A stretch of DNA of 64,000 bases from Ulota crispa (taxonomy: Eukaryota; Streptophyta; Bryopsida; Orthotrichales; Orthotrichaceae): assembly GCA_963920765.1 (NCBI GenBank), contig OY987246.1, forward strand, positions 2,110,501 to 2,174,500, read 5' to 3'. Every line of letters begins with the position of its first letter. Position 1 is the first letter of the stretch. The notes under the pieces were generated by a model that worked only from the letters and a program-made list of their open reading frames with translations, had not been told where the DNA came from and did not search any database. The position numbers and the translations under genes were made by a program. Below, in pieces: positions 34,959 to 60,824 of the stretch.

Positions 34959-36303
34959 CCACTTCAACTTCCAACTCTGCCGCCCGTGCGTTAAAAGTCA
35001 AAGCCTCCTGCCACGTCAGCATCTTTGTTGCGAATAACCTCCAATCGAGGGTCCGAATTTGCGCTGACAAAGTCTTCCCCGATGGAGCAAATTTCCTCGG
35101 AACTTGAAGTTACTTCCTCTGCTTTGAAAGGTCAATGGCTATATTTTGCAATGGAAGCACAATCTGCGTGACGCGGGCAATGGCGTGAGCGGGACTGTTT
35201 CAAGTGGGCACCTAACTAGATTCTCCATTGCATTTGACCCTGATTTCTGGGACCTGGATTGTCCGTCACTGCAATAGAAACTAAAAAATGCTAATAGCAA
35301 GGGTAAGAATGAATTGTACAGTAACTTAACTTATGTCCCTCTTCATTGGAATAGTGGAGATCGACCGAGTCAATCCTTCGAGATCGGCGTTACCGAATGC
35401 GCGCGAGGTTGCAGTCGTACAGCATCACTTGGACGTTCGAATGTTTGATAAGCAACCTTTGGTTTAGCATAGCTTTTGCGGAGTCAGTTTTCACCGGAGC
35501 TAGCTAGCTATCAATCTCGGTCTCGAAAGCTGTTTACCGTAAACAAGCCAGTTGTGCTTCTTGAATGAATATACTCGGTCGACTCAACCTCACGGATTCG
35601 GAGTTCGATAGACTTGAAGTGCTTAGAATAAACAAGCTAGGCAGGCTCAATAACGCATTCTGTATGCAAGTGGAGGATTTTGATGCAGCATTCCAAGCTT
35701 AAACTTACCATAAGTTAGCCGAGTCAAAGTTCGTTGCAAGCTGAACATGTATACATTCAAAGCTGAAAGATCGTTAGGTGCTGTCTAGGTCGATTGCAGA
35801 TAGTTATGATCGGTCTGTCCAGATCCACCTCGGGCTTGTCCCGAGATGTGCACAGGTTTGCCAGCTTCCACGAGATGGATCAAGTAGGACAAATCAAGTG
35901 AGCTACGATTCAACGGAGGTGTATAGCTCCGCGCTGGTAAGTCTCTTGCTTGTTTGTGTCTTCAAGCTGCAATAGTCTAAGAAAAAATCGATGAATGTTC
36001 GGATTAGAGGGCCCTGCATGCTTAATATCCATTCTGCGATGCGAACCGTGGTTCACAAATTGCGTAATGTAGGATTAGTCCGTATTGAAAGAGCGACTGT
36101 TGCTGTGTTGGGTATATCGATTGATGGATATGAGCTGAGTGGATTTTGTCAGGCAAACGATTTTCGTGTCACCTGGCCATGGCGCTCTTGCTGCGCGACA
36201 GATAGCGGCAGTGCGCCTTTTGCTGTAAGCTTAGATGAAGCCAAGGATAGGCGGCGTCTGATCAAGCAGACTCGAGTCGGAGTGCATCAAACGACAGCCA
36301 GCC
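34959..36303. other. 5' flank of the VAPYRIN gene, no gene recognised
   Basis: GC content rises toward the gene from about 35000. Short open frames occur here (for example 35991-36404) but none resembles a known protein, and the longest simply runs into the VPY start region in another frame. This stretch most likely holds promoter and 5' UTR. I could not identify a TATA box or specific operator with confidence. Confidence 0.4.
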
Positions 36304-38074
36304 ATGGCCGACAAGCAGCAGCAGCAGCACGTGAGCTTCGATGTGGACGAGGTGCAAATCCCGTTCGCGCTCGGGAAGCGCGTGACGTACAAAGTGCGCA
36401 TTAGGAGCTTAGTCGCCACGACCGCCGTGGCGTACAAGGTGCAAACCACGAGCCCCAAGAAGTTCGGCGTGAAGCCGCACACAGGCATCCTCAAACCGCT
36501 CGCCACCACCACCTTTGTCATCATCCTGCAGCCCCAACACGCAGTTCCAGAGGATTTCCCCATCTCCCGCGACAAATTCCTCGTCACCACCATGCTCATC
36601 CCGGATGAGCCATCGCCGCCACCATCCCTCTCCACGCTCAGCGAATGGTTCGCCACCAAGCGTTACAAGGTATGGCTGAATTCCATGCATTGCTAATCTT
36701 ACGATATTCTGATGCTCAGAGCTCTGACAAACCATGCATGACCAGCACATAGATCTGAAATTTTGCCATTTAGCCATTTTACCGAGTTTTAGCGGAAGTG
36801 TTCAGGTCGTGGTGGCAGTGAAGATACCCGTGGTGTACATTGGCGGCGAGATTCTGCGTCTCTCCGCAGCAAAGGGGTCAAGGGAATCCATCCAGGACGT
36901 GCTTTCGCGGGGCACGAACGTGAATGCGAAGGACGAGCAAGGACGGACGGCGCTCAGCATTGCAGCGTTGCGAGGTGATCCGCACATCGTGCAGGAGCTT
37001 CTCGAGGCCGGCGCGGCCGTGGACGGGCCTAGCGGCGCGGGGCTGACGCCCTTGCAAGAAGCAGCGTTCGCCGGGCATGCAACAATCGTGACGCTGCTGT
37101 TGCGAGCCAAAGCGAATAAGGAGATTCCGTCGCATCCCAGAGGCTGGACGGCGCTCCATCTCTCGGCCTCGCGCGGCCGCGTCGGGGTACTGCGGATTCT
37201 GCTCAAAGCGGGCGCGAATGAGAACGCACCGGATAAGGATATGCGCACGCCATTGCACGCGGCGGTCACGGAGGGGCATACGAAAGCCGCGCTCCTGCTG
37301 CTCCAGAACGGCGCGGACGCGGATCCGCAGAGCCGCGACGGGCGCACGCCGCTGCACTGTGCGGCGATGGCGGGCCACCTGGCGACCATGGAGCTGCTGG
37401 TTGACTGGCGGGCGAGCAAGGAAATCAAGGATGTTGATGGGAAAACGCCGTTTGAGCTGGCGATGGAGAACGGGCACACTTTTGTTCTGGATCCCCTACT
37501 GCTGGGTCAGTTTTTGCACAAAGCGGCGCGCGAGGGAAATGTGCAAGCGCTCCAGCGTTGCTTGCTGCAAGGCGCGCTGGTGAACGGATCCGACCATCAC
37601 GGGTTCACCGCGCTCCACCGCGCGGCGTTCAAGGGGCACGCCGCCGTGCTGGTGGCGCTGCTGGTCGACCACGGCGCGGACGTGAATGCTCGCGACCGCG
37701 AGGGGTACTCCGCCCTGCACTGCGCTGCCATCTCTGGCCACGTCGACGCGTGCGCCGTGCTGCTCCGGCACGGCGCGGACGTGAACGCGCGCTGTGTCAA
37801 AGGCTCCACGCCGCTGCATGTGTCCGTGGCGATGGACTTCGTGGCGGTGGTTTGCTTGTTACTCGATTCTGGTGCAGATGCCACTATTGAAGCACTCGAT
37901 GGCCGCACAGCGTTGAATATTGCCGTGGAGTCGCGGCATCATGATCTCATCCCCATGCTCATGAACCTCCACCAGGAAGTGGACGACGATGATTCAATAC
38001 ACACCTCGGAGTCGGAGCGCCTTTGCCCTTCACTTGCCAATGTCTCCCTCAAGGATAAGGAAATCCTTATCTAA
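36304..38074 (+). CDS. VPY: VAPYRIN-like protein (MSP/VAP domain plus ankyrin repeats)
   Basis: Two exons, 36304-36669 and 36806-38074, joined in phase 0 across a 136-nt intron (donor AAG|GTATGG, acceptor TTCAG|GTCG), give 544 residues, close to the usual size of the family. Residues about 8-125 form an MSP (VAP) domain with the hydrophobic beta-strand pattern and the typical KPHTGILKPLATTTF stretch, ending SEWFATKRYK. From about residue 140 to 515 there are ten or so ankyrin repeats with the TALHxAAxxGH pattern, followed by a short acidic tail. This order, the DWF/EWF-type junction and the break in the repeat array (KTPFELAMENGH, then FLHKAAREGN) match VAPYRIN, a cytosolic protein of small puncta needed for arbuscular mycorrhizal and rhizobial entry in seed plants and also kept in mosses. 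The start ATG sits in a good plant context (CAGCCATGGCC). The coding sequence is much more GC-rich than its surroundings. The identity rests on architecture and remembered homologues; role in this plant is inferred. Confidence 0.92.
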
Positions 38075-38372
38075 CATACAGTGGCTTTGCCAATTGAGTT
38101 AGCTTAGCTTTTGATCAAAGGTCCACATCTCATCAGTCAGTCGTACATTTACAAGCACATGACAATCAGGTCGATCAGATCATCATAGACATATCCGTGA
38201 CCACGCAATCGATTTACATTGAAAATGCCTCGTAAGCACATCTTGTATAACAAAAGCGTAACCATTACAGTTGGTGAGCTCTACTCTTGTCAGTGTGTTT
38301 AGGGGACCCATACAAAGCATGTACTCAGGAACTGGTTATATAATATTAGCCTAGAGCTCTGACTTTCGAATG
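38075..38372. other. Convergent intergenic region between VPY and the DUF3223 gene
   Basis: A 298-nt spacer between two facing stop codons. It should hold both 3' UTRs. No repeat or further open frame is evident. Confidence 0.5.
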
Positions 38373-39349
38373 CTAACTGAAAGACCGATACTTGTCGCGT
38401 GTTTTGAAATCGAAAATGGTTTCACGCTTCGTTGCACCAGTTGCCTGCTCCACTTCTCTGTAAGATCTGAACAGAGTATCGTACTGGCCCAGCATGTCTG
38501 GACACTCTTCGGCAGCTTTCTCCTTGAGGCACTTGTGGTAACTGAAGTCAACCTCGGTGCCGTCGACACGGACCACCCAGAAGCACCGTGTGGTGTGGTC
38601 ATAAACCTTTTGTATCTGCAGGAGTTTCAATCGACATCAGCGGCATCGAATTCTCACAACTTGCCTTGAGAACTTCAAAACTGTCGGTTGAAGGTACATG
38701 GTAACCATGCATTCTAGATACAATGCAACAACTATCTCCGTATGGCCTCGTTTCCAAGGAGATAAATACTGTACAACGACTGAATACTGTAGATTACATG
38801 AACGGCTCCGTAATGAGGTACGGTGAAAATATGGTCTGATATAATCGATTCCTACACCGGTCTTCTCTTCGAATTTCTTGTGATACTTGAGCACATCACG
38901 AACCGCCTTTTTGTCCTCTGGAGAGAGACGTTCACCGTCCTCATAATTCCTGCACACAACAGTGTTGACAGGATCATTTCACAACGTAGAACGATACAGG
39001 TTTACTAGGGACCAAATTCAGATGATCTTAGAAAACGGGAGAGGGGGAAGGAGGAGGAGTTCCGTGATGAGAGTTCTTACTGCTTGTGCAACAATCCTGA
39101 CAAGTGACGACGGTATTCAACAATCTCCTGCCACGGATTCCGACTGTTACCGCTCTTGAAGCTGCTTGACTTGAGCTCCTCTTTAGTTGGCGAGACTGGA
39201 GTATCCTTCGACTTGCACTGTTTCAGCACCATCATCAGATCATTCAACTGGAAGCTCTCTTTCTTTGGAGTGACTTTAGGTACATCGAGACAGGCTTGGT
39301 CTGAAGGTACCAGCTTCCCATCACCAACTTCCTTCCCCTTCAAAGCCAT
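38373..39349 (-). CDS. DUF3223 / DCL-domain protein
   Basis: Three exons on the minus strand, 39349-39081, 38949-38856 and 38615-38373, give 201 residues with consistent phases. Exon 1 has a GTAAGA donor, exon 2 a TGCAG acceptor, exon 3 a TGCAG acceptor. The exon 2 donor (GGT|GTAGGA) is the least certain boundary; an alternative would keep a few more residues (VGIDYI) before the junction. Residues about 105-175 match the DUF3223/DeCL fold: a helix VLKYHKKFEEKTG, then RCFWVVRVDGTEVDFSYHKC, the family hallmark of the tomato DCL protein and of the C-terminus of RNA polymerase V subunit NRPE1. DCL proteins act in plastid rRNA processing and plastid development; others have no known role. The N-terminal 80 residues are polar and not clearly a transit peptide. 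The ATG at 39349 is the first in frame. It is convergent with VPY, with about 300 nt between stop codons. Confidence 0.78.
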
Positions 39350-39761
39350 AGCTTTGATCTCTGCCAACTTCACAATTCAGAACTCTCACTCGCAGAGATG
39401 TGTGCTCAAACTATAGTGGACTGTGACTGGAGAGATGCAATGTGACAATGGCTCTTTATATTGAAATGCTGATGGTCTACGGAAATTATGGAGTGTGGGC
39501 TAGATATCTGGACATACTTACTGTGAGGTTTGTTTCAACGTCGGGAGCAATGAAGCGCAGACAATCTGTGAAATAAATCCGCCGAAGACAAAAATTCATT
39601 TAAATAGAGCGCTTCGAAAAGAGAAGTTTTCTGTACGTACCGGGTTCTTCATGCTTTGATGAATCGCTGCCGCCGTTGGACGCAGAAATAATATTATTCT
39701 ATGGGTGACGTGACTTGGTATGGTGCGCTTTGTGGCATTTGAGCATTCTGGCTGTAGTTCG
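39350..39761. other. 5' flank of the DUF3223 gene
   Basis: No coding sequence recognised. The stretch probably contains the promoter and 5' UTR of the minus-strand gene and ends at the TA-flanked MITE that starts at 39762. Confidence 0.35.
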
Positions 39762-40074
39762 TAAGGTAGAAGGCTCGAAAATCGCTCACCCTCCAAAATG
39801 TTCTAGCTCTGTACATGAATTTTTTCATAGATTTTCAAACTGTACAAGTAGTGTACATTTGAGGAGGTGAGCGGTTATAAAGCCCTATGCCACTTCAGTT
39901 TCAAAATTTCATAACTAATACTACAAAATTTCAAAAAATATGAAACAACTTGGGTTAGATGTCAATTCTTTTTGTCTCAAGAAAATTTTACTGAAAATTA
40001 TTTCAAGATGTTCTACCTCCACAAAATTCAGTTTCAGCCCTTAGATGTGGTCGGTTTTCGAGCCTTCTACCTTA
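39762..40074. mobile_element. TA-flanked MITE, AGGTAG family
   Basis: Ends TAAGGTAGAAGGCTCGAAAA and TTTTCGAGCCTTCTACCTTA form a perfect 20-bp pair. Interior has GTACATTTGAGGAGGTGAGC, as in 6412-6725. Confidence 0.8.
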
Positions 40075-40338
40075 CACTTTTGCCGGCATCAATAAGTTAC
40101 TGAGCATCCGTAGAGTTGTTATGTGCAATTCAATTGCTGACCATTCCTACAGAATTATTTATCAACTGCGCTGGTAGCTCCTCTTGCCATACTCCAAGAG
40201 GTAGATTTAAAAAAAAAAATTCTCCTGGAATTAAGAGCTGAAGTTTCAACAAACAAAAGGAAGGAGAAACCGTCATTCATAAGTGGGCAACTTAGAAGAA
40301 CTCAATAGGAATAAGGTGGAAGCACCATACCCGATATC

Positions 40339-40342
40339 TTAA
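40339..40342. other. Unfilled TTAA target site
   Basis: This TTAA lies within a dispersed repeat (about 40309-40480) whose other copy, at 51799-51825 plus 52476-52625, is interrupted at the same place by the element at 51826. Confidence 0.8.
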
Positions 40343-42763
40343 GCGATTCTGCAACAAGCTACAAAGAGTTTAAGGCAACAAATATTTTTCCCGTATACGA
40401 AGATAAGAAATATTGGGATTGCTAACTTTTCATGGTTTTATTTGTAAAACTGAAATTATTGTGAATTTTTGGGGTTAAAAAATGTTCTAGACCCATGGTT
40501 AATGTCTAGACTTATGCAATTTAGATAATAACCAAACGATTTTTTGTTTGTTATTTCATATTTCACTTTGGGACACGTGGCATGACTTAAGTGGTCCCAA
40601 CTTTGGAAAGAAGAGAACACATTCCAAACCACATAACCTTGCTGATATTGGAGATAGCACACCCTATTGGCTGGGTATGGGGCGTTGTTGGCTATGGTAC
40701 TTCCACCTTAGAAGAGAAGAAGTGGGTTGGGGAAAGGGCTCAAATTTCAATAAACCAAAGAAAGAAGAAACAGTCGTTCACAAGCGGGTAGCTGGTAAAA
40801 ATTGAATAGAAATTGAGTAGATATAGAAGAGCAGTAGGATGAGGAAAGACTTTTGAAATGTGCATTTGTCCAAAACAAGGAGCTGGTCTTTATTGAATGC
40901 CTCGATTACCTTTTCTTTGTATGAACTCAAATGACACAATTGTTCTACTGCTGAACAATGCCATGAGAATTGAGGAAACTTGGAGAAATGAATATATTGT
41001 TCCATATGTCATGAATGCAAAATTTGTCACATTTAATTGAGTTTGAAATTATGCAAAGCCCAAAAATAACAGTTGAAATGTAAAACATCATGGGAGACTT
41101 GTGCAATATTTTGGGAGATGAGTGCCATATGCAAAATATAGGGACATTTGTGCAAAATCCAAACGTTTGTGTCCCTCAATATAGGGACAACAAGAGATTT
41201 TCCTATGGTTTGCACACAAAGTCCAAAGTTACGTGGATAGTTAAAATTCAGTTAAATATGACATAGATTTACTTCATAAATTTTAAAACTAGATTTTTAT
41301 TAGTTTTACAATGCAATACTTATTTGTAGATATCCTTTAGTTCAAAAAAGATAAGTACCTTTTTATCCAAAGAGAAACTTTCCTAAAGACTCAAAAATGT
41401 TTGGCATCAGTTGATTGTGATAAAATAAATAAGACAAAAATATTTCAAAATTAACAAAAATATTGATTTTATGACAGCATAATCCTACTAGCAATGGTAA
41501 GTGCTCCAATTTGATGATCTTTAGCAGCAAATACATCTTTGTTTTTTATTTTTGCCAAAATTATCTATTTCTACTTTAGTTAGCCTTCTTTTCCATTTGG
41601 CAAAAAACATTTTAATTTATCATCCAAATTCTAAGTGGCATATCCGACCTTCACCTTGAGAGTTGATGACAAGCCATCTAAAGGTTGTAAATTTTCAAAA
41701 TAATTTGTGGAGATTTGAAACAGTGATACCATTTGTATTTGAATAAAGAATTAAAAATGTCCTTATCAAGTACAAATTTATCCACAAAAAATGTGATTTT
41801 TACTATAATTTACGTTATAGCAAAGAACATCTTAATAAAAACTTAGGAGAATTTACAAGCATGCTAATATATATTGTTGCTTTAAATCACTACACTAAAA
41901 GAATTGTCAAAATTTCAAAAAGAAAAAGACTTTGTAAAACTTCATTTTACTGGTTAGAATAATAAAACTGCCAAGGATAATATATATACGGGCCTTATGT
42001 GCTTTCTGTAAATCTCAACATGCAACATACGTGAAATGATTCGCTTGCTAATTCCCCCGCTTGGTGAAAAATCACTTGCTCCCGAGCAAAATCTTTTCCC
42101 AGTTGTCAATATGTGAGACTTTTGGAATAATAAAATATAAAGAAAGCACATACGTTAAGAAACTGGTTTACAGGAAGCTCAGATGCAAAGGATGTTAATT
42201 TAATCACTACGATTAAAATCAAGTACCAAGAAGCTAGAAGTTATATGATATGCTCTTATGTTAGACATGGACCGCATATAAATTCCAAACATGATATGAT
42301 AATATTACATGACCATCAACAAAACTTCATCAAAAAAATGCTGTTGATTCTTTGTCATCCGTAGCTTAGAGATTGCTTTCTCCGATGTCACGACATGAGT
42401 TCCTATAATACAGAGCAGACAAGATCCTCAAGAACTCTCACACTTTAAAGACTTCAGGATGCAAGGTTTCCTTAACAAACGTAATGCCTGAGCTGGACCT
42501 CTGTACATGAAGATCTGGCCGAACAGGTAATTTAAGAGGTTCTCCTTGACCTGGAAGTAGTATACTTCAGAAGCAAGAGTGATGCTATCGATGCGGTGCA
42601 CTTGGACAAAATGATTAGAGGACTTATCTGCATACGATTGAAGGCAATGCTCCAGGAAGAGTGCTGTCGAGGTACACTAAGTGCTCCCTCGCAAATTTAA
42701 AAGCTTCACTGTCGGTGCTTTTGTTAACAAGACCCGGCGTGAAGTAACAGCAGGCTTATATCA
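40343..42763. other. AT-rich spacer and 3' flank of the CRM gene
   Basis: No gene recognised. 40343-40480 continues a dispersed repeat also found at 52476-52625. 40222-40305 and 40739-40820 are related to each other (a GAAGGAGAAAC-type stretch followed by a short AT-rich run). 42350-42763 is less AT-rich and may be the 3' UTR of the CRM gene. Confidence 0.35.
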
Positions 42764-45700
42764 TCAAGTTTTCAAGATAATGTCGTCGAGCTCTCTAAGT
42801 TGCTTCCTTTGCTTTCCGCTTCCTCCAAATTTTCCTGCTCAAGTACAGATTTGCTCAGTTTTAGAATCGTAAGAGATTATGATATAGAAACCAGTCAGCA
42901 ACTCGTCTAATCATACACTTGGTTGGTTTTGCCTTTAATTAGCAAGAGGCGTAAAGCACGACTTGGCTAAATGACTATGGACACTCATCTTTGAATGGCG
43001 ATTGGGTTGTCTACTGTCTCTGCAATATGGGTCTATAATCTTCCACTTTAAAACTGTACAGAAAATTCATACATAATGCTAAAAACTCAAGAGATTTGGA
43101 TATTGAACCTAAAGTGATCTCTCCAGAGATCTATACATCTCCCAAAGTCACACTCCTGCATGAATTCAAGTGCTTAAAGTGACACAAATAGTATCCTTTA
43201 CCTTGCATTCTTACTGTAAAGGACGTGAGAGAATGTATGAAGATTCAAAGCACTTACCATCTCTGCTCGTAATACGCTGAAGTCCCTCTCCAGCTTTTGT
43301 AGGTGCCTCTCTAAAGACTGTAAACCAGAACAACCATAAACGCAATTAGTTGCCCAAGTAAATTTTAGAGGATAACATCATGGTTCGGCTCAGATAGAAT
43401 TAATAACATTGAGCTAAAAGGAACAACAATGAAGGCCGAAACAATTGTATAACATACATCATAAGCTGGACGGGAAATGCCTACATGGACAAAAGTAGCC
43501 TCTTTTCCCATATGATTTGAATTTTTTGTTTAGGTATCAAAATATACCAATAGAAAGAAGAAACCATACTCGGCATTTTTTAATGATAAAACATGTTTTA
43601 ATAGGAATGTACCAATTTTCGCCGCTTTTGATTGAAGCGCTGCCAAGCCTCCTTCTTCGTGAGCAATCCTGGTGGCCTTAACCCATGGGGGTGGCCTTGT
43701 GGGCTTACTCCATCAGTAGGGCGCTGGTAATTCTTGCCACGATACACAACGATGGCTTCGCCAACAGGAATGCTACAAATGCCGACCACAACCCCTCCAC
43801 TCTCGATTTCAAGCATTCTGGCTATTTCCTCGACCGCGTCCTTTTCTCGATACATGAAGTAACTCTTCTTCACAATGATCTTCACCAGCTCCCTCCACTT
43901 CCAGTTCAGATGCATGTTCTCAATAATCCCACCAAACACTTCTCTCCTTCCTGAGAAGAACCGAACAGTTCAAAAAACAGATTTATGCTCACCCTGGCAC
44001 CATTTTGAAAGATTCGACTGCATTAAGGGGATAAAATGAACCAGTAAAATGAAGAAATAATGTTACAATTAAATATGTTTTGGAAGTCAATATGATTGAC
44101 TATTAGGCTTCAAATGTATTTTCAGTTTTTTTGGTCTGGTCACATGAAGGGTTAAACCCTAAAAAATTCTTGGTTTTATTCCTCTGCTCCATCTGTGAAA
44201 CACCCCAAAAAAAACTGGTACTATCACTATTGATATCTGTGTTTAACCTACTTGTAGTAACACCTTGATGACAATGAAAAGACTCATAGAAGAAATAAGG
44301 GGATATAGTATCGTACCAAGGAGAAGATATGGCTTCATACGCAACCCGATCTTCTGCAAAGTATACATTTCCTCCTCTGAGAGTTGCTCCTTCGCTGCTT
44401 GCAAACTTTTAGGCCTCACCTTTGAGTCTAGATTTTTTAGCTCTCTCTCAGCTCTATCTATCTTTTGAGCAGCCTGAAGAACAAACATATCACAGCATTA
44501 ATCAAAGAAAATCAAAACTCTTCTTAACAAACTATGACAAGCCTCGTGTTCCTTATCACAAGTACTAACAGAACCCAGGGCCCATCTTTCGAGGGAAATA
44601 TCTTTAAAATGTCATATATTCTAGTATGAACTCACAGCATTGAGTAATCTCTGCATCTTTTTCACAGCTTGATCTCTTGCAGGTCTCCGTATTTGAGTAG
44701 AGCAATCCTGGCTATTTTTCCAAGGATCCCACCTAGACTTTTCCTCCAATGTCTCTGCTAGTGTCCCGGCATTCCTGTTCACAGCACAGAGAAGACTTAG
44801 AAATTTACAACTCAACACCATAAAATGAGGAACACCGACACAAATGAACAACGTGGCAATTGCGAATCTCTATCTATCTTCACATTGAGTACCATTACAT
44901 AGTTCAAGCTGAGCAGATACGGTACCTAGGTTTTAAAGGAGCGTCAATAACAGGAGGGGCATTGCAAAAGCCAGCCAAACGGACTCTTTCTTCCTCCTCC
45001 AAAAGGGTTATGACCATGCGGTTCTTCTCCTCCAAAGTACTCTTCACTACATGCGGTAGAAAATCGTTCCCTCGAAAGAGTGCAATGTAAGTCATGTTTC
45101 GGGCTATCAGGTCTCCTCCAGTAAGCCTCTGCACACCACAACAACAACATCACACCTGTCCTCCCTTTCAAAAAGTAATCGCATGAAACGCATCCATATC
45201 CAGGAAAGCTTACCATCAACTCTGCAGTCACACGGTCGTTATCGATTCTTGAGACACCACTCTTCATAACTAGTTTAACAACTTCGCTCTGTTCCCACAA
45301 CTTCACTATAGCTGAGGCCAGCCCTTCGAGTCCTCGTCGTTTCCCTGGAAGAAATTGTGCACACGGATTAACACGCGTTTACATAAAAAACTAGGCAATG
45401 AGTATTGAAACTTTACATGAGTTTCCTTCACGTACAAAAAAGCGGTTTGCAAATACTCACCAAGTGCAAAATGTGGAGGAAGCTTTTTAGCCAGATGTCG
45501 CATCTCCGTCATTTCGATGTTAGTGAGTCTAGGTCTCACTCCATACGGCAGTCGCCTAAAGGGACTCTTGAACCCCAAATCTGGAGGTACTAACAAATCT
45601 CCATCAATTGGCACATGTCCACCTTGATCCCAGTCTGTGTATTGCGGCCCCAGATCATCCAGAAGCTCCTCGATTTGTGTCTCCCGCATTTGCAAGTCAA

Positions 45701-48700
45701 AGGGAGTTTTACCCTCCTTGAATTGCTCACTTTCGTCTTCTTCATCCAAGCCAAGAGACTGTAGTCGCTCTCTGTAAGCTTCCTCCCTTTTCTCAAACTT
45801 GCGTATCCAACCGGGGATATAGTCCTGTCCACGATAAATCACCACTGCTGGTCCCTCCCTCCATATGACTGTTCCACCAGTTAATCTCTGCACAGCCAAA
45901 CATATCGAACATTAGTACTGCTGGAGACTTTAAGCTAAGAACTCATAAAAGGCCCCAATAAAAGATGTGGAAGATAATTTATCTCTCTTACCCCAATTCA
46001 CCAGTACCACACTTCCTACTATCCTTTCTTTTGCTTGTGAGGAATTAAAAACTATCATAGCCCAGACGTGCCCAAAGTCAACAATACAAAAGTCTATTTC
46101 AGAAGCTAACATTCTAGTAATTCTCAAGATATACTTCTATAGATTGGAGTAGTACTTCTCCTTTCTAGTGATTCATTTTGCTACCTTCAGAATTAAAATT
46201 TTCAACTCTTTAAGATATGAAAGCGGTCACTATTGGCCATTTGAGCACGAAAGGGTCAACCACCAGAAAGAGTACAGAAAGTTTGACTCTGCTACTACTC
46301 CTGAAACATCAAAAAACCGCAGGATTTGACAAAGAAAGAAACATGTATGATAACTTATACATCAGCATCAATGTACTTGAATCACGCCACTCATTAACGT
46401 TGATTCAATCAACAAGCAAAAGAAAAGAAAGGAATTACTAACCTCAATATCGTCATGGACCTTCCTCATGCTGCGTCCAGGGACAATACATCTCACTTTT
46501 GCAACCTCAGACACAAGCCACTTGTTATGGATAGACTTCACAATGCCCCTTGTGATCCCTTCCATTCCAATCTTCATCCAACCTCTTATTTTCAACCTCA
46601 AGGCACACAACCTCTCCAATTCATAAAGCGGTATTGCCTGCACGCGTTCTTCCTCATATTCATCTACATCTCTTGTTTGCTTCCACAAGCCCGAAGTGTT
46701 CTGAGCTTCGTCCATCTCCGAAGGATCATCTTCTTCCGCAACATTGTGTACATCCAAGGCAAATCCTTCTTCCCATCCAAAGTTTGAGGTACCTGTGCCA
46801 TTTGAAGGCTTCTCTTCCAAAAAGGAATCCCAATTGCTGTTATTGCTCTTAACCTTCTCCAATACACTCTCGATGTCAGCTTCAGATTCATCCACCATCA
46901 CTATTTCCTCGGAGTTGATTGCATTTTCCCATAATTTATCGAATTCTAATACTGCTTCTTCAGTGGCTGGGACTGCAGTGGCGTTCAAGCTTGATGCTAC
47001 TGCATGCTGGTTTCGGTCATTCATAACCAAAGCTTCTTCAGATTCCGCAAGCAAGTTTTCGATGTCTACTGACTCTCGGTTAGAAATGATCGTCTCCTGA
47101 GGACTGGTTGATGGACCGGAGGTGTCTTCTTCGTCCTTGTTCTGGCTGATGTTCGACCCTCTCCATAACAACATAAAGTGACTGTCGAAAGAGAGGGGCA
47201 CACATGGCACCAAATCCTGCCAAAAATTAAAAACAAATCCAACCAAAAAGTAAGGAAAAAGCAAAGTACGAGACAAAATAGTAGGTATTGAGTACATTAG
47301 ATCAACCGTAAGACAATCTTAAAATTAACTTAATCTCAAGTTAGTGTAGACTTCATACTAACCTTATAGTTGCAAACGTGATATCTAGTTCATGCTAGTG
47401 ATATTAAAATCGCACTAACATCAACTAAACACCATTTGCATTACACTAACACTAACTCAACATGAACTCAATATCTAAATTATATGGATCTTAAACCTAT
47501 TAAGCTAACGTTAAAAACTTTGTCAATGTAATGGGTATCTATTGCATTGAAGGTGACTCCAAATAGAAGGTAGGATCAAAAGATAGGAGGTGCTAGCATG
47601 ATGAAAACGATCTAATGTAAGAGCAGGACTTACCCTAAGCTTTGCACCAATTTTCTTCATGTCACTTCTATCTAACTCCCTACAGTCCACTTTGACGAGC
47701 TCATGAATTTCGAATGTGTCCTTCACCATCTTCACTAGGTTTTGGTACATCCCAGACCTCTCTGAAAACCAAAACCTAAACTTATTAGGCTGCTTTCAAA
47801 TATGACGCAAGACAACTTCATCCGTTCTCAAACCTCTCGTCTAAAAATAAATGCTAACCTACCGCAAGCATTTAGCACCGACAGGTTGCTGCAATAAAAA
47901 GAGCAGCCCTCCATTGAGAAACGCACCATCACTTACGGCTTTCTCTAACATAAACCTTGCTAGTTGTAACGCAGCTAAGTTTTCTAGAACAAATCCAGGG
48001 AGTGGGTTCTCTACGAGTAAACTATTGTCACTTGCCATGAACAAATTGCAACCTCATTTAACTATGCTTGTGGTTGAACGTTTCTAGCTGAATAAATTTA
48101 AAAAAAACAGTGGACCCTCCAAGCTACATGTAGTCTTCACAAGGTGTCAAGAAATAACAACTAGAGAATTCAAGTCGATGTAACTACAACCGACTTCTAG
48201 AAAAGTAAACTACGCTTGTTGCATATCTTACTCAAGCGACAGAGACAGGAAATTCGCCGCCCCAATGCGCGCAAATTGTCAGCTTCTTCCACACTCAAAC
48301 ACTCGGGCACACGTTGCACAACCGGAGGGTAAATGGGGACGGATGGTTTCCACAGCATCAAAGGAATTTTGGGCCGTGTATTCCAATTGTAATTGCGTCC
48401 ACGAAACACATACAGCATACTCTTAGAACGGCGAATAATCTTGCCACCAGACTTCTCCTGTTTCATGGAAACACTGCCATCAAACAACTGCTATCATTGC
48501 CACATCAACGACAGAAACCCAAGTTTGGCAGGCATTCTTAAAAATGCTAAGAAACATGTCTAAAAAAAAAAACTTTAATATACCCTTGCTCTCCTACAGT
48601 GAGTGGATCAAACGCCTGGGTTGAGGAAAGTTTCAGAACCTCAATCACAGAACAGAGGTTGTCCATGTCCACGGTAGGAACCCCGTAGCACTTAATTCTA

Positions 48701-50770
48701 CAAACACGTCGTCGCTTCCAGTGTCTATGCAATAGATCCAGCATGTTGTGCGTCAGCCCATCCTTCCCTTCAACAAGAACATTACAGCGAGAAACTCAGA
48801 TGTCTGCATTTACGGAGTCTTGTAAGTAAATCCAACCATTACAAAAGTTCCTGATATTTGGAAGAAATAACTTAATCAAGGGTTCCATGACTTTTGAAGA
48901 GGCCAAACAAATTTGACTATGTTGTGCAAACATAATGCACATGGTGCCAAGAGCCGCAACTTGGGAGTTTTAGTAACTATAGACATTAGAGAAAACATAA
49001 TCCACAGCATGGAAAAAATGTAGGATTTACCGAGATCAAGCTGCCGGCGGCGCTCAAAGCAAGCCTCCGCTACAAGCTCCCGCACTTCATCTCTGCTCAA
49101 AGATTCGCCCAATATCTCCCTCCTTGTGCGTCCCAGAGTGGGGCCTGTACCCTCAGGGAAAGGTCCAGGAGGTGCCACTTTCTTAACCTTTGTCATTGCA
49201 GCTGGTGGCAGATTGAAAGAATCAAACTCCCGCGGTGCTCTCTTTGAAGGCTCGTAAGGGCGTTTGCCTGTCCAAGGCCTCACCATGGTCGTAGGTCCGA
49301 AAGGCGAGAAAACTGGCTCCCGAAACGCAATGGGAGCGACCTTTGGATGCTCGGAGTAGCTGAACTGGCAAGTTTGCTCGGGCTTGACAATAGCAGGCAC
49401 AAAGTCTTGGAAGAAAACGGACTTCGCTTTGTAGTAAGGCTGGAGATGCAAATGGTTTTCCTTCTGTTGTTGCTTGACTGTTGCTGAACGAGCTTGATCT
49501 CGATTAGGTTGCTTCCCCTTTGTGTACTTTGAGAATTTCGCAGGAATTGATGGATATGATTTTGAGAGTGTCGATTCAGGTCCACCCCCGAGATGGTGTT
49601 GAGGATCCTCATCGTCCGAGTTCCAGGCCATAGAATCTTCTCTACGGTCTTGAGCAGACCAGAGGTGGTTCTCATCCTGCTTCCACAAAGCATATGAATT
49701 TCGTTACATAAGAACAACACCTTGAACTTATTTCTAAAGAGCAACATACCATTTTTGAGAAGCTGCTGAAACAATTTTCGACATCGATGGACAATGAACC
49801 AAGAGAAAAAAAAGGCTCAGATCGGTTTTTCAGCACAAGCTTAACCCCTGAAGGGTCCTTAAGCTTTAGAGATACGGTACCAAATACGGTCGCAATCAAT
49901 ATTCAGAAGTTTGAATCAGCTGGAAATTAAGTGTTACAACCATACATATTGAAAGGTTGTATGATGGTGGGTGAATAATTTTTTTTGGAAAGCCCTCAGA
50001 GCAGCTCAAATACATCTGTATATACGGCCGTACATACGGCCGCAAAGGGCTTTCGGGATGTTCAGGGGTTAAGCTCATTTGCATGCCCGGCAAATGAAAC
50101 AAAGTTCTCCACAAGTGGCCATGGAAGAAATTGCTACCAAAATTTTAGTGCTCCAGATTCTTATCGTGGTACAGTGGAAAGATGCAAAGTAGTAGACGAT
50201 GCTGGAATGTTATTAAACACTGACGCCCAAGCAGAAGAATTAATCTAAAAACCCTAATCTTGCCACATGCATGGTTCGTCAAAATTAGGGTTACACATGG
50301 GATGGACTTACCTCTGGATCTGATGATGAGCTTCTATCCACTTGATGATAACTTGTTTCATAATCTTGTACATCATATTCCCGTAAAGCCTCCACTTGAC
50401 CATCCCCTCGTCTCCGGACGAAAGAACTGCTATCCTCATCATCCCAGTCTTCAGTATCCTTGCCTTGAAGCTCCACTACACCATTACTTAAGCCAGATTC
50501 ACTGCGTTGCTTCAGAATATCCATAAATATACTCGATAATTTGTACTGAGAACTGTTGGTGGCATCCTCGTTCACTGAACTTTGTTGCTTCCACGGAGAA
50601 GATGATGCAAGCACGGGAACTCTGGGTTGAAGCGGAAGGTGATATATTGAGCGTGACTGCACACGTTTCAGGCTACCTAACCGGGAAGTATGCAACCTCG
50701 AGTTCCGACGCGGACGCTCTAAATTGCAGGGAAAATTGGTGGTGGATGTCACAATAAACCTTACTGCCAT
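42764..50770 (-). CDS. Five-CRM-domain protein: CAF1/CAF2-type half fused to CRS1/CFM-type half
   Basis: Fourteen exons: 50770-50312, 49676-49031, 48767-48640, 48457-48232, 47761-47634, 47216-46443, 45887-45461, 45344-45214, 45128-44926, 44774-44636, 44473-44317, 43950-43613, 43318-43258, 42834-42764. Every junction keeps phase; the sum is 3,888 nt, 1,295 residues plus stop. Residues 1-340 are a transit-like leader and a CAF-type region ([20 protein letters not shown], then [10 protein letters not shown]). CRM1 (about 345-440, [20 protein letters not shown], then [20 protein letters not shown]) and CRM2 (about 465-550, ending [20 protein letters not shown]) are CAF-like. An acidic linker follows (550-722). 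CRM3 (723-812), CRM4 (910-1000) and CRM5 (1120-1215) are CRS1/CFM2/CFM3-like, each with a TGG or SGG and YRG/FRG core, then a coiled-coil-like tail. Both classes bind group II introns in chloroplasts, CAFs as partners of CRS2. The fusion is unusual. The two last small exons are less certain than the rest. Confidence 0.92.
49841..50072 (+). mobile_element. TTAA-type MITE in CRM-gene intron 1
   Basis: TTAACCCCTGAAGGG at left, TTCAGGGGTTAA at right, 232 bp. Aligns end to end with 10275-10502. Right part has ACGGCCGTACATACGGCCG. Fills over a third of the 635-nt intron. Confidence 0.8.

Positions 50771-58601: not shown

Positions 58602-60824
<2,223 letters not shown>

Follow-up and report, generated by a model that had tools for sequence, protein, structure and literature searches.

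A CAF-type and a CFM-type gene fused in one reading frame with five CRM domains in the moss Ulota crispa

We analysed a window of 64,000 nucleotides of the Ulota crispa genome and found that its minus strand carries a gene in which a CAF-type gene and a CFM-type gene are fused, the last exon of the CAF being joined to the exon of the first CFM CRM (Table 1). All 13 introns are GT...AG, and the spliced translation of the 14 exons gave one frame that begins with the ATG at 50770. The CDS closes with a stop codon whose last base is 42772 rather than 42764, and it measures 3,879 nt including the stop; the single frame across 13 introns that the preliminary description had claimed held, while its length of 3,888 nt did not. 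According to Pfam, the protein contains five stretches of the CRM domain, PF01985 (251 bits, E 6.5e-76, cut-off 27), in agreement with the five CRM domains read earlier. Exon 13 is backed solely by a by-eye likeness to a C2 frame, and the 20 aa of exon 14 are without homology support.

Table 1. Position of the fusion gene and its parts within the window.
Feature	Coordinates	Strand	Remarks
Fusion gene CDS	42772..50770	(-)	14 exons, 1,292 aa, five CRM domains; spliced translation and Pfam PF01985
Exon 1	50312..50770	(-)	N-terminus rich in R, S and T with hardly any acidic residues; putative organelle targeting peptide
CRM1, CAF type, exons 2-4	48389..49100	(-)	with C10 CAF CRM1, support 100/100
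CRM2, CAF type, exons 4-6	47151..48298	(-)	with C10 CAF CRM2, support 99/98; GxxG = KRSG
Exon 6 (fusion exon)	46443..47216	(-)	774 nt, open; CRM2 end, linker and first half of CRM3
CAF C-terminal block, residues 614-654	46842..46964	(-)	46% identity to C10 CAF tail, E 3.3e-7
68-codon stretch, residues 655-722	46638..46841	(-)	not significantly matched by either parent (p 0.09 and 0.11)
CRM3, CFM type, exons 6-7	45819..46634	(-)	with C1 CFM CRM1, support 89/86
CRM4, CFM type, exons 7-9	45060..45527	(-)	with C1 CFM CRM2, support 100/98
CRM5, CFM type, exons 11-12	43727..44383	(-)	with C1 and C2 CFM CRM3, support 94/96; GxxG = GRRE

In a tree of 12 CRMs, all five CRMs of the fusion were placed with the expected domain of a paralogue, and three of the five groups reached the tool's starred support. 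All four introns of the stand-alone CAF-type model on C10 have a counterpart of identical position and phase in the fusion, as do six of the eight introns of the CFM model on C1 (10 of 12 for both models); the exon ends of the paralogues were set by eye from GT/AG and from homology, for which the fusion served in part as a template. Residues 1-720 showed 42.6% identity to the C10 CAF-type gene over 679 aligned residues, and residues 550-1292 showed 44.5% identity to the C1 CFM model over 656. The CAF label of the 5' half is based on known sequence hallmarks of the family and on the arrangement with two CRMs. The CFM half consists of three CRMs in CFM order, with no fourth found by Pfam, tree or searches; queries taken from C1 and C2, which recovered both of their sources and each the other, detected no fourth CRM downstream in 37001-43200, nor in the whole window at E up to 1. 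The join that had been proposed for this locus, of a CAF-type protein with a CFM-type one of three CRMs, lies in one frame and one exon, with its parentage given by tree and introns.

The junction falls within exon 6. As had been noted, this exon bridges CAF CRM2 and the CFM part without a stop, being open in frame over its 774 nt; the other two frames of the same strand hold 15 and 18 stops, and the window contains no N. When the 173-codon linker was simulated with a first-order Markov model of its composition, none of 20,000 runs left it open. The likeness of the linker to the C10 CAF tail was matched by none of 2,000 shuffles. Within the linker, the helical moment peaks at the CAF C-terminal block, as it does at the same block in the C10 CAF. 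A passage of PMC8657633 describes a CRS2-binding motif of 22 aa in the CAF C-terminus. Judged by conservation and amphipathicity, the amphipathic helix in the block of the fusion is a candidate for this motif. The 68 codons that follow the block, in which neither parent was significantly matched, were open in 2.5% of first-order Markov simulations of their own composition, and the fusion point probably lies within them. A global alignment had given these codons some likeness to the C-terminal end of the C10 CAF, but this assignment was dropped because the homology test was not significant. An AlphaFold model of exon 6 alone (mean pLDDT 36.9, pTM 0.18) was set aside.

We then considered the other CRM genes of this genome, in which six CRM loci were found. 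Two of these are CAF-type, namely the fusion and the stand-alone gene on C10. The C1 paralogue is CFM2-like, carries a fourth CRM-like stretch and is the nearest complete CFM gene among those that the genome yielded. Genome searches, for which an S1 domain search served as a control for the detection of short, intron-split domains, found no stand-alone three-CRM gene, the fusion being the only three-CRM gene found. On whether a stand-alone paralogue might be missing, as the preliminary description had asked, the answer is divided: a stand-alone three-CRM gene was absent from the search results, but a separate CAF-type gene is present. A possible further CFM gene at C2:17185826 (E 0.045) was rejected, as it comprised only short, frame-broken pieces of CFM and lacked any additional CRM. 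A PTH-family gene lies on C4; of the chains in the PDB, that of maize CRS2 comes closest to it, so that it may not be a plain hydrolase. In a PDB search, two chains matched weakly, namely 1rq8 (E 0.0012) and 1jo0 (E 0.7), both of which we take to be bacterial CRM proteins. The exon 6 protein gave three pattern matches and no confirmed one among viral contigs, and the CAF CRMs gave no match among plasmids; both collections are without plants and uninformative on other plants.

In well-studied flowering plants, CAF-type and CFM-type proteins are separate polypeptides, and CRM proteins are found in both plastids and mitochondria. In the earlier reading of this locus, CFM proteins had been contrasted with CAFs as factors that bind other group II introns, but passages of two reviews place CFM2 and CFM3 on CRS2/CAF introns: introns that need CRS2/CAF also require CFM2 or CFM3, and CFM3 co-immunoprecipitates with CAF1, CAF2 and RNC1 (PMC9275481; PMC9497791). 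Since CFM2 and CFM3 act on CRS2/CAF introns, the fusion joins cooperating subunits. In sections of PMC3927076 and PMC9497791, plant proteins are described as having 1 to 4 CRMs each, which is a described range and not a functional requirement. The phrase "five CRM domains" did not occur in the literature searched, and the main text of PMC13419835 does not mention CRM, CRS2, CAF1 or CFM. Within the papers searched, and among the matches listed, five CRMs in CAF and CFM order are new, which agrees, within the scope of that literature, with the earlier claim of a new architecture.

Compared with known systems, the fusion resembles CAF1/CAF2 in its two CAF-type CRMs, in the four introns common to it and the C10 CAF, and in its kept C-terminal block, whereas its frame runs on for >600 aa past the tail through three more CRMs. 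It differs from the stand-alone C10 CAF in having one extra intron in the N-terminal part. Like CRS1/CFM3-type proteins it has three CRMs in the same order, and it has six introns in common with the C1 CFM model; unlike them, its CFM half follows a whole CAF and lacks an N-terminal targeting exon of its own. The four-CRM CFM2 is matched by the fourth CRM-like stretch of the C1 paralogue, and the fusion has no fourth CRM that was found. The CRS2/CAF:CFM complexes of maize and Arabidopsis bring the same two subfamilies to group II introns, according to passages of PMC9275481 and PMC9497791, but consist of separate polypeptides, while in the fusion the link would be covalent.

We consider it probable that this is a real fusion gene whose product is one organelle-imported CAF and CFM protein acting on one group IIB intron. 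By the order of events that we infer, a CAF-type gene would have merged into one transcription unit with a three-CRM gene of CRS1/CFM3 type that lay downstream of it, the terminal CAF exon with its C-terminal tail would have been joined in frame to the exon that opens the first CRM of the CFM, and the N-terminal targeting exon of the CFM would have been lost. The CAF-side N-terminus would import the 1,292-aa protein into an organelle, most likely the chloroplast. There, the CAF-type CRMs and the three CFM-type CRMs would bind one intron together, and the linker helix would tether CRS2 or a PTH-like equivalent. The fusion would thereby hard-wire a pairing of CAF and CFM for which flowering plants use separate polypeptides.

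The location of the protein was considered from its N-terminus. Residues 1-60 contain 16.7% K+R, 21.7% S+T and 1.7% D+E, with a net charge of +9, and form the presumed targeting peptide. The chloroplast is the likely destination; because the N-terminus is arginine-rich (15% Arg), a mitochondrial or dual location is possible. A true fusion working in mitochondria or in both organelles, with the C10 CAF serving the chloroplast, would also accord with the finding of only two CAF-type loci, with the dual localization of CFM3 stated in PMC9497791 and with the five Arabidopsis CRM proteins listed as mitochondrial in a part of PMC10226603. We regard it as unlikely, since the CAF tail with its candidate CRS2 helix is still present in the linker, and the CRS2 partnership is described for plastid CAFs.

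The end branch of the 12-CRM tree was longer in the fusion than in the paralogue in all five domain pairs, and the GxxG loops KRSG and GRRE replace the GKNG and GRRG of the paralogues, suggesting that the fusion may have partly changed its function. The same observations would suit a decaying or repurposed, fast-evolving duplicate with weakened RNA binding, the main load being carried by the C10 CAF and the C1 CFM. That is improbable: 1,292 codons are free of stops, 10 of 12 paralogue introns are kept, identity is 43% and 45% across the two halves, and no other three-CRM gene was found.

It is likewise improbable that the locus makes two proteins, with the CAF and CFM parts split by alternative polyadenylation, an internal promoter or proteolysis, although cleavage after import may occur. 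Five in-frame methionines do lie in residues 551-760 (594, 636, 697, 743 and 747). However, in the three cases of Met 594, 636 and 697 the next 60 residues are acidic (net charge -10, -13 and -1), unlike the true N-terminus. Those that follow Met 743 and 747 are at net +5, but their start already lies within CRM3, the first residue of which is 724. From the CAF tail to the CFM homology there are only 68 codons, all open. The C1 CFM model has its own first exon of about 280 aa, while the CFM half of the fusion has no N-terminal targeting peptide of its own and is preceded instead by the acidic linker (25% D+E, net charge -34), in which nothing is targeting-like. An assembly join of two loci, for which nothing specific speaks, is scarcely credible, as it would have to fall within one exon, in frame, on the same strand and without N, beside a CAF tail and a CFM start, and separate copies of the CAF part or the CFM half were not found in the genome.

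Returning to the fusion as one imported protein, it looks like a natural weld of two parts of one splicing machine. According to PMC10226603, it is largely unclear whether the splicing factors of plant organelles assemble into larger, spliceosome-like complexes, and some of these factors may act sequentially. The chances seem even that the fusion serves, in a single polypeptide, as a splicing module for group II introns, combining a CRS2 dock, CAF-type specificity and CFM-type binding at a fixed 1:1 stoichiometry. Because the fusion is the only three-CRM gene found, such a module would show that CAF and CFM act simultaneously on one intron, not sequentially. If true, this would provide independent evolutionary evidence for simultaneous, stoichiometric action of the two CRM subfamilies, which are reported to share introns. 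The fusion would also supply one ready chain for biochemical or structural work together with a group IIB intron, and would permit a clean test in a plant with few CRM genes.

We obtained a single frame of 1,292 codons plus a stop by spliced translation of the fusion gene, and all 13 of its introns have GT...AG borders. Five stretches of the protein matched the Pfam model of the CRM domain, PF01985. The preliminary description, which had joined a CAF-type and a CFM-type half in one gene of 3,888 nt, was right in exon structure and frame and erred only in its final bases, since the stop codon finishes at 42772, which gives 3,879 nt of coding sequence.

Exons of the CAF-CFM fusion gene (window positions)
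Feature	Positions	Strand	Basis
Exons 1-5	50770-50312, 49676-49031, 48767-48640, 48457-48232, 47761-47634	-	spliced translation
Exons 6-10	47216-46443, 45887-45461, 45344-45214, 45128-44926, 44774-44636	-	spliced translation
Exons 11-14	44473-44317, 43950-43613, 43317-43258, 42834-42772	-	spliced translation

A MinE ORF (PF03776; 51027-51443, minus strand) lies directly upstream of the fusion ATG. It is 92% identical to a copy at C7:16852149, which has a longer open frame, and 80% to one at C10:14310650, and looks like a truncated duplicate. The stretch 36262-38074 (plus strand) contains an MSP-domain ORF and, after it, an ankyrin-repeat ORF of 448 aa, a layout which we take to be that of plant VAPYRIN. 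At 59557-60824 (minus strand), two ORFs match successive parts of polyprenyl synthetase PF00348 and are probably one intron-split GGPP-synthase-like gene.

The CRM search covered the 275-Mb, 157-contig genome, the window being part of contig C5, and returned 12 matches at six loci (the fusion gene, C10, two on C1, C2 and C8). Judged by its size and the style of its genes, this is presumably a bryophyte genome, probably that of a moss. A stand-alone CAF-type gene of 850 aa and five exons was found at C10:5084470-5088303, with two CRMs (Pfam; last 446 residues scanned). The CFM-type gene from C1:23880827 onward was modelled for its first three CRMs, and a fourth CRM-like stretch follows further on; the CFM-like domains found on C2 correspond only to CRM3 and CRM4 of this gene. 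C1:12094654 was a single-CRM match, and the C8 match was weak. Exon ends of the paralogues were placed by eye from GT/AG and homology. The preliminary description had asked whether stand-alone paralogues were missing: the CAF-type gene is present on C10, and searches of the genome with the CAF half, the CFM half and the C1 CFM gene found no stand-alone three-CRM gene and no further CAF-type gene among the best candidates scored. Divergent copies could have escaped these searches, because only the best candidates were scored and the fourth CRM was absent from the Pfam listing for both C1 and C2. The CFM2-like gene from C2:17404369 onward yielded no domains other than those of CRM3 and CRM4 type and is possibly a shortened CFM2 copy. 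The weak match at C2:17185826 lies in C2:17185809-17186315, where nothing more than short, disrupted segments similar to the C1 CFM gene was seen, and which is likely a pseudogene fragment.

Twelve CRM domains, excluding the fourth CRMs and the match on C8, were compared in a maximum-likelihood tree (treekit). The results showed that fusion CRM1 and CRM2 pair with CRM1 and CRM2 of C10 (support 100/100 and 99/98), that CRM3 and CRM4 pair with CRM1 and CRM2 of C1 (89/86 and 100/98), and that CRM5 groups with CRM3 of C1 and of C2 (94/96), the 89/86 and 94/96 groups being below treekit's star level. The fusion shares introns of identical position and phase with both paralogue models: every one of the four in C10 and six of the eight in C1. 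The two remaining C1 introns, one ahead of C1 CRM1 and the other behind it, are missing from the fusion. C10 has nothing equivalent to fusion intron 1, and the final two fusion introns are outside the part covered by the C1 model. The shared introns rule out a retrocopy origin and show that the fusion arose from intron-bearing genes.

Exon 6 (774 nt) leads from the end of CRM2 through a 173-codon linker into the first part of CRM3. Its reading frame is free of stops, against 15 and 18 in the same strand's other two frames, and the window contains no N bases. On a codon-preference score trained on the two flanking halves (0.318 and 0.283 per codon), the linker's reading frame (0.205) was nearer to those halves than the other frames tried (0.016 and -0.169; one reverse frame, -0.060). 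Within it, residues 655-722, a 68-codon gap, had no significant match to either parent; there the +1 frame scored nearly as well (0.172 vs 0.225), so codon preference does not discriminate between frames in the gap. Among 20,000 sequences simulated with the linker's composition, none was free of stops across 173 codons, while 2.5% of simulations had no stop across 68 codons. In C10, the exon beginning DLVPC continues to the stop codon, and in C1 the exon ending mid-CRM1 is preceded by a separate N-terminus exon; on these grounds exon 6 is best read as the CAF last exon joined to the CFM CRM1 exon, with the CFM N-terminal exon lost.

In a search of 9 kb, residues 614-654, within the linker, aligned with the C10 tail at 46% identity (E 3.3e-7), and none of 2,000 shuffles was as good for whole linker against whole tail. 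The top helical hydrophobic moment of both tails sits on this block, VQEAVREFESLWEEAIDS being one of the two highest-moment segments. Passages of PMC8657633 report that CRS2 is bound by a 22-aa motif of the CAF C-terminal region. According to passages of PMC7437035, rice CAF2 needs its C-terminal part to bind CRS2, and a conserved hydrophobic region is said to be important; for maize, a single sentence of that paper names the N-terminal part, in conflict with the remainder of its text. We infer that the block is probably the 22-aa CRS2-binding motif of CAFs. With 25% D+E and a net charge of -34, the linker is acidic, in contrast to the N-terminus, which has a net charge of +9 over 60 residues. 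Residues 551-760 contain five methionines; three of them precede acidic stretches and the other two fall within CRM3, so that nothing resembling a targeting peptide was seen there from which a separate CFM protein could start.

Genome searches found only one PTH/CRS2-family locus, C4:7293958-7295948. Its joined exons scored best against a CRS2 chain in the PDB (189 bits), presumably that of maize, and next against a peptidyl-tRNA hydrolase (116 bits), yet the gene reads YDDLDL at the site of YDDTSL in that CRS2. The predicted protein is a possible partner of the linker helix and may act as a hydrolase, as a splicing factor or as both, in which last case a single gene would serve the two functions.

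The fusion branch was longer than that of the paralogue in all five domain pairs. The GxxG loop of CRM2 is KRSG in the fusion vs GKNG in C10 (48232 with 47761-47751, the first codon being split by intron 4), and that of CRM5 is GRRE vs GRRG in C1 (43950-43940). These loops suggest that RNA binding by CRM2 and CRM5 of the fusion may be altered. Exon 12 further differs from its C1 counterpart by two insertions, one within CRM5 and one just past it. These differences count against the reading of the product as a CAF:CFM splicing factor.

Plant CRM proteins have one to four CRMs according to the reviews PMC3927076 and PMC9497791, whereas the fusion has five. In the open-licence literature, text search returned no paper with 'five CRM domains', and no CAF-CFM fusion appeared in the title or abstract start of the matches listed. 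The same fusion may be present unremarked in other genomes; per the literature searched, a five-CRM CAF+CFM gene is a new form within known CRM protein families.

According to passages of PMC9275481 and PMC9497791, introns requiring CRS2/CAF also require CFM2 or CFM3, CFM3 co-immunoprecipitates with CAF1, CAF2 and RNC1, and the CAFs are bound by CRS2; PMC9497791 states the CFM3 association, yet also remarks that examining it may be of interest. The fusion would bring the CAF and CFM subfamilies into one chain, with CRS2 held at the linker; mitochondrial targeting of the protein is possible. What the sequence establishes is the fusion at the level of the gene; its product is most likely a splicing factor of organelle group IIB introns that combines CAF and CFM in a single chain, and compared with the reviewed CRS2/CAF:CFM association it would have the two subfamilies joined covalently.
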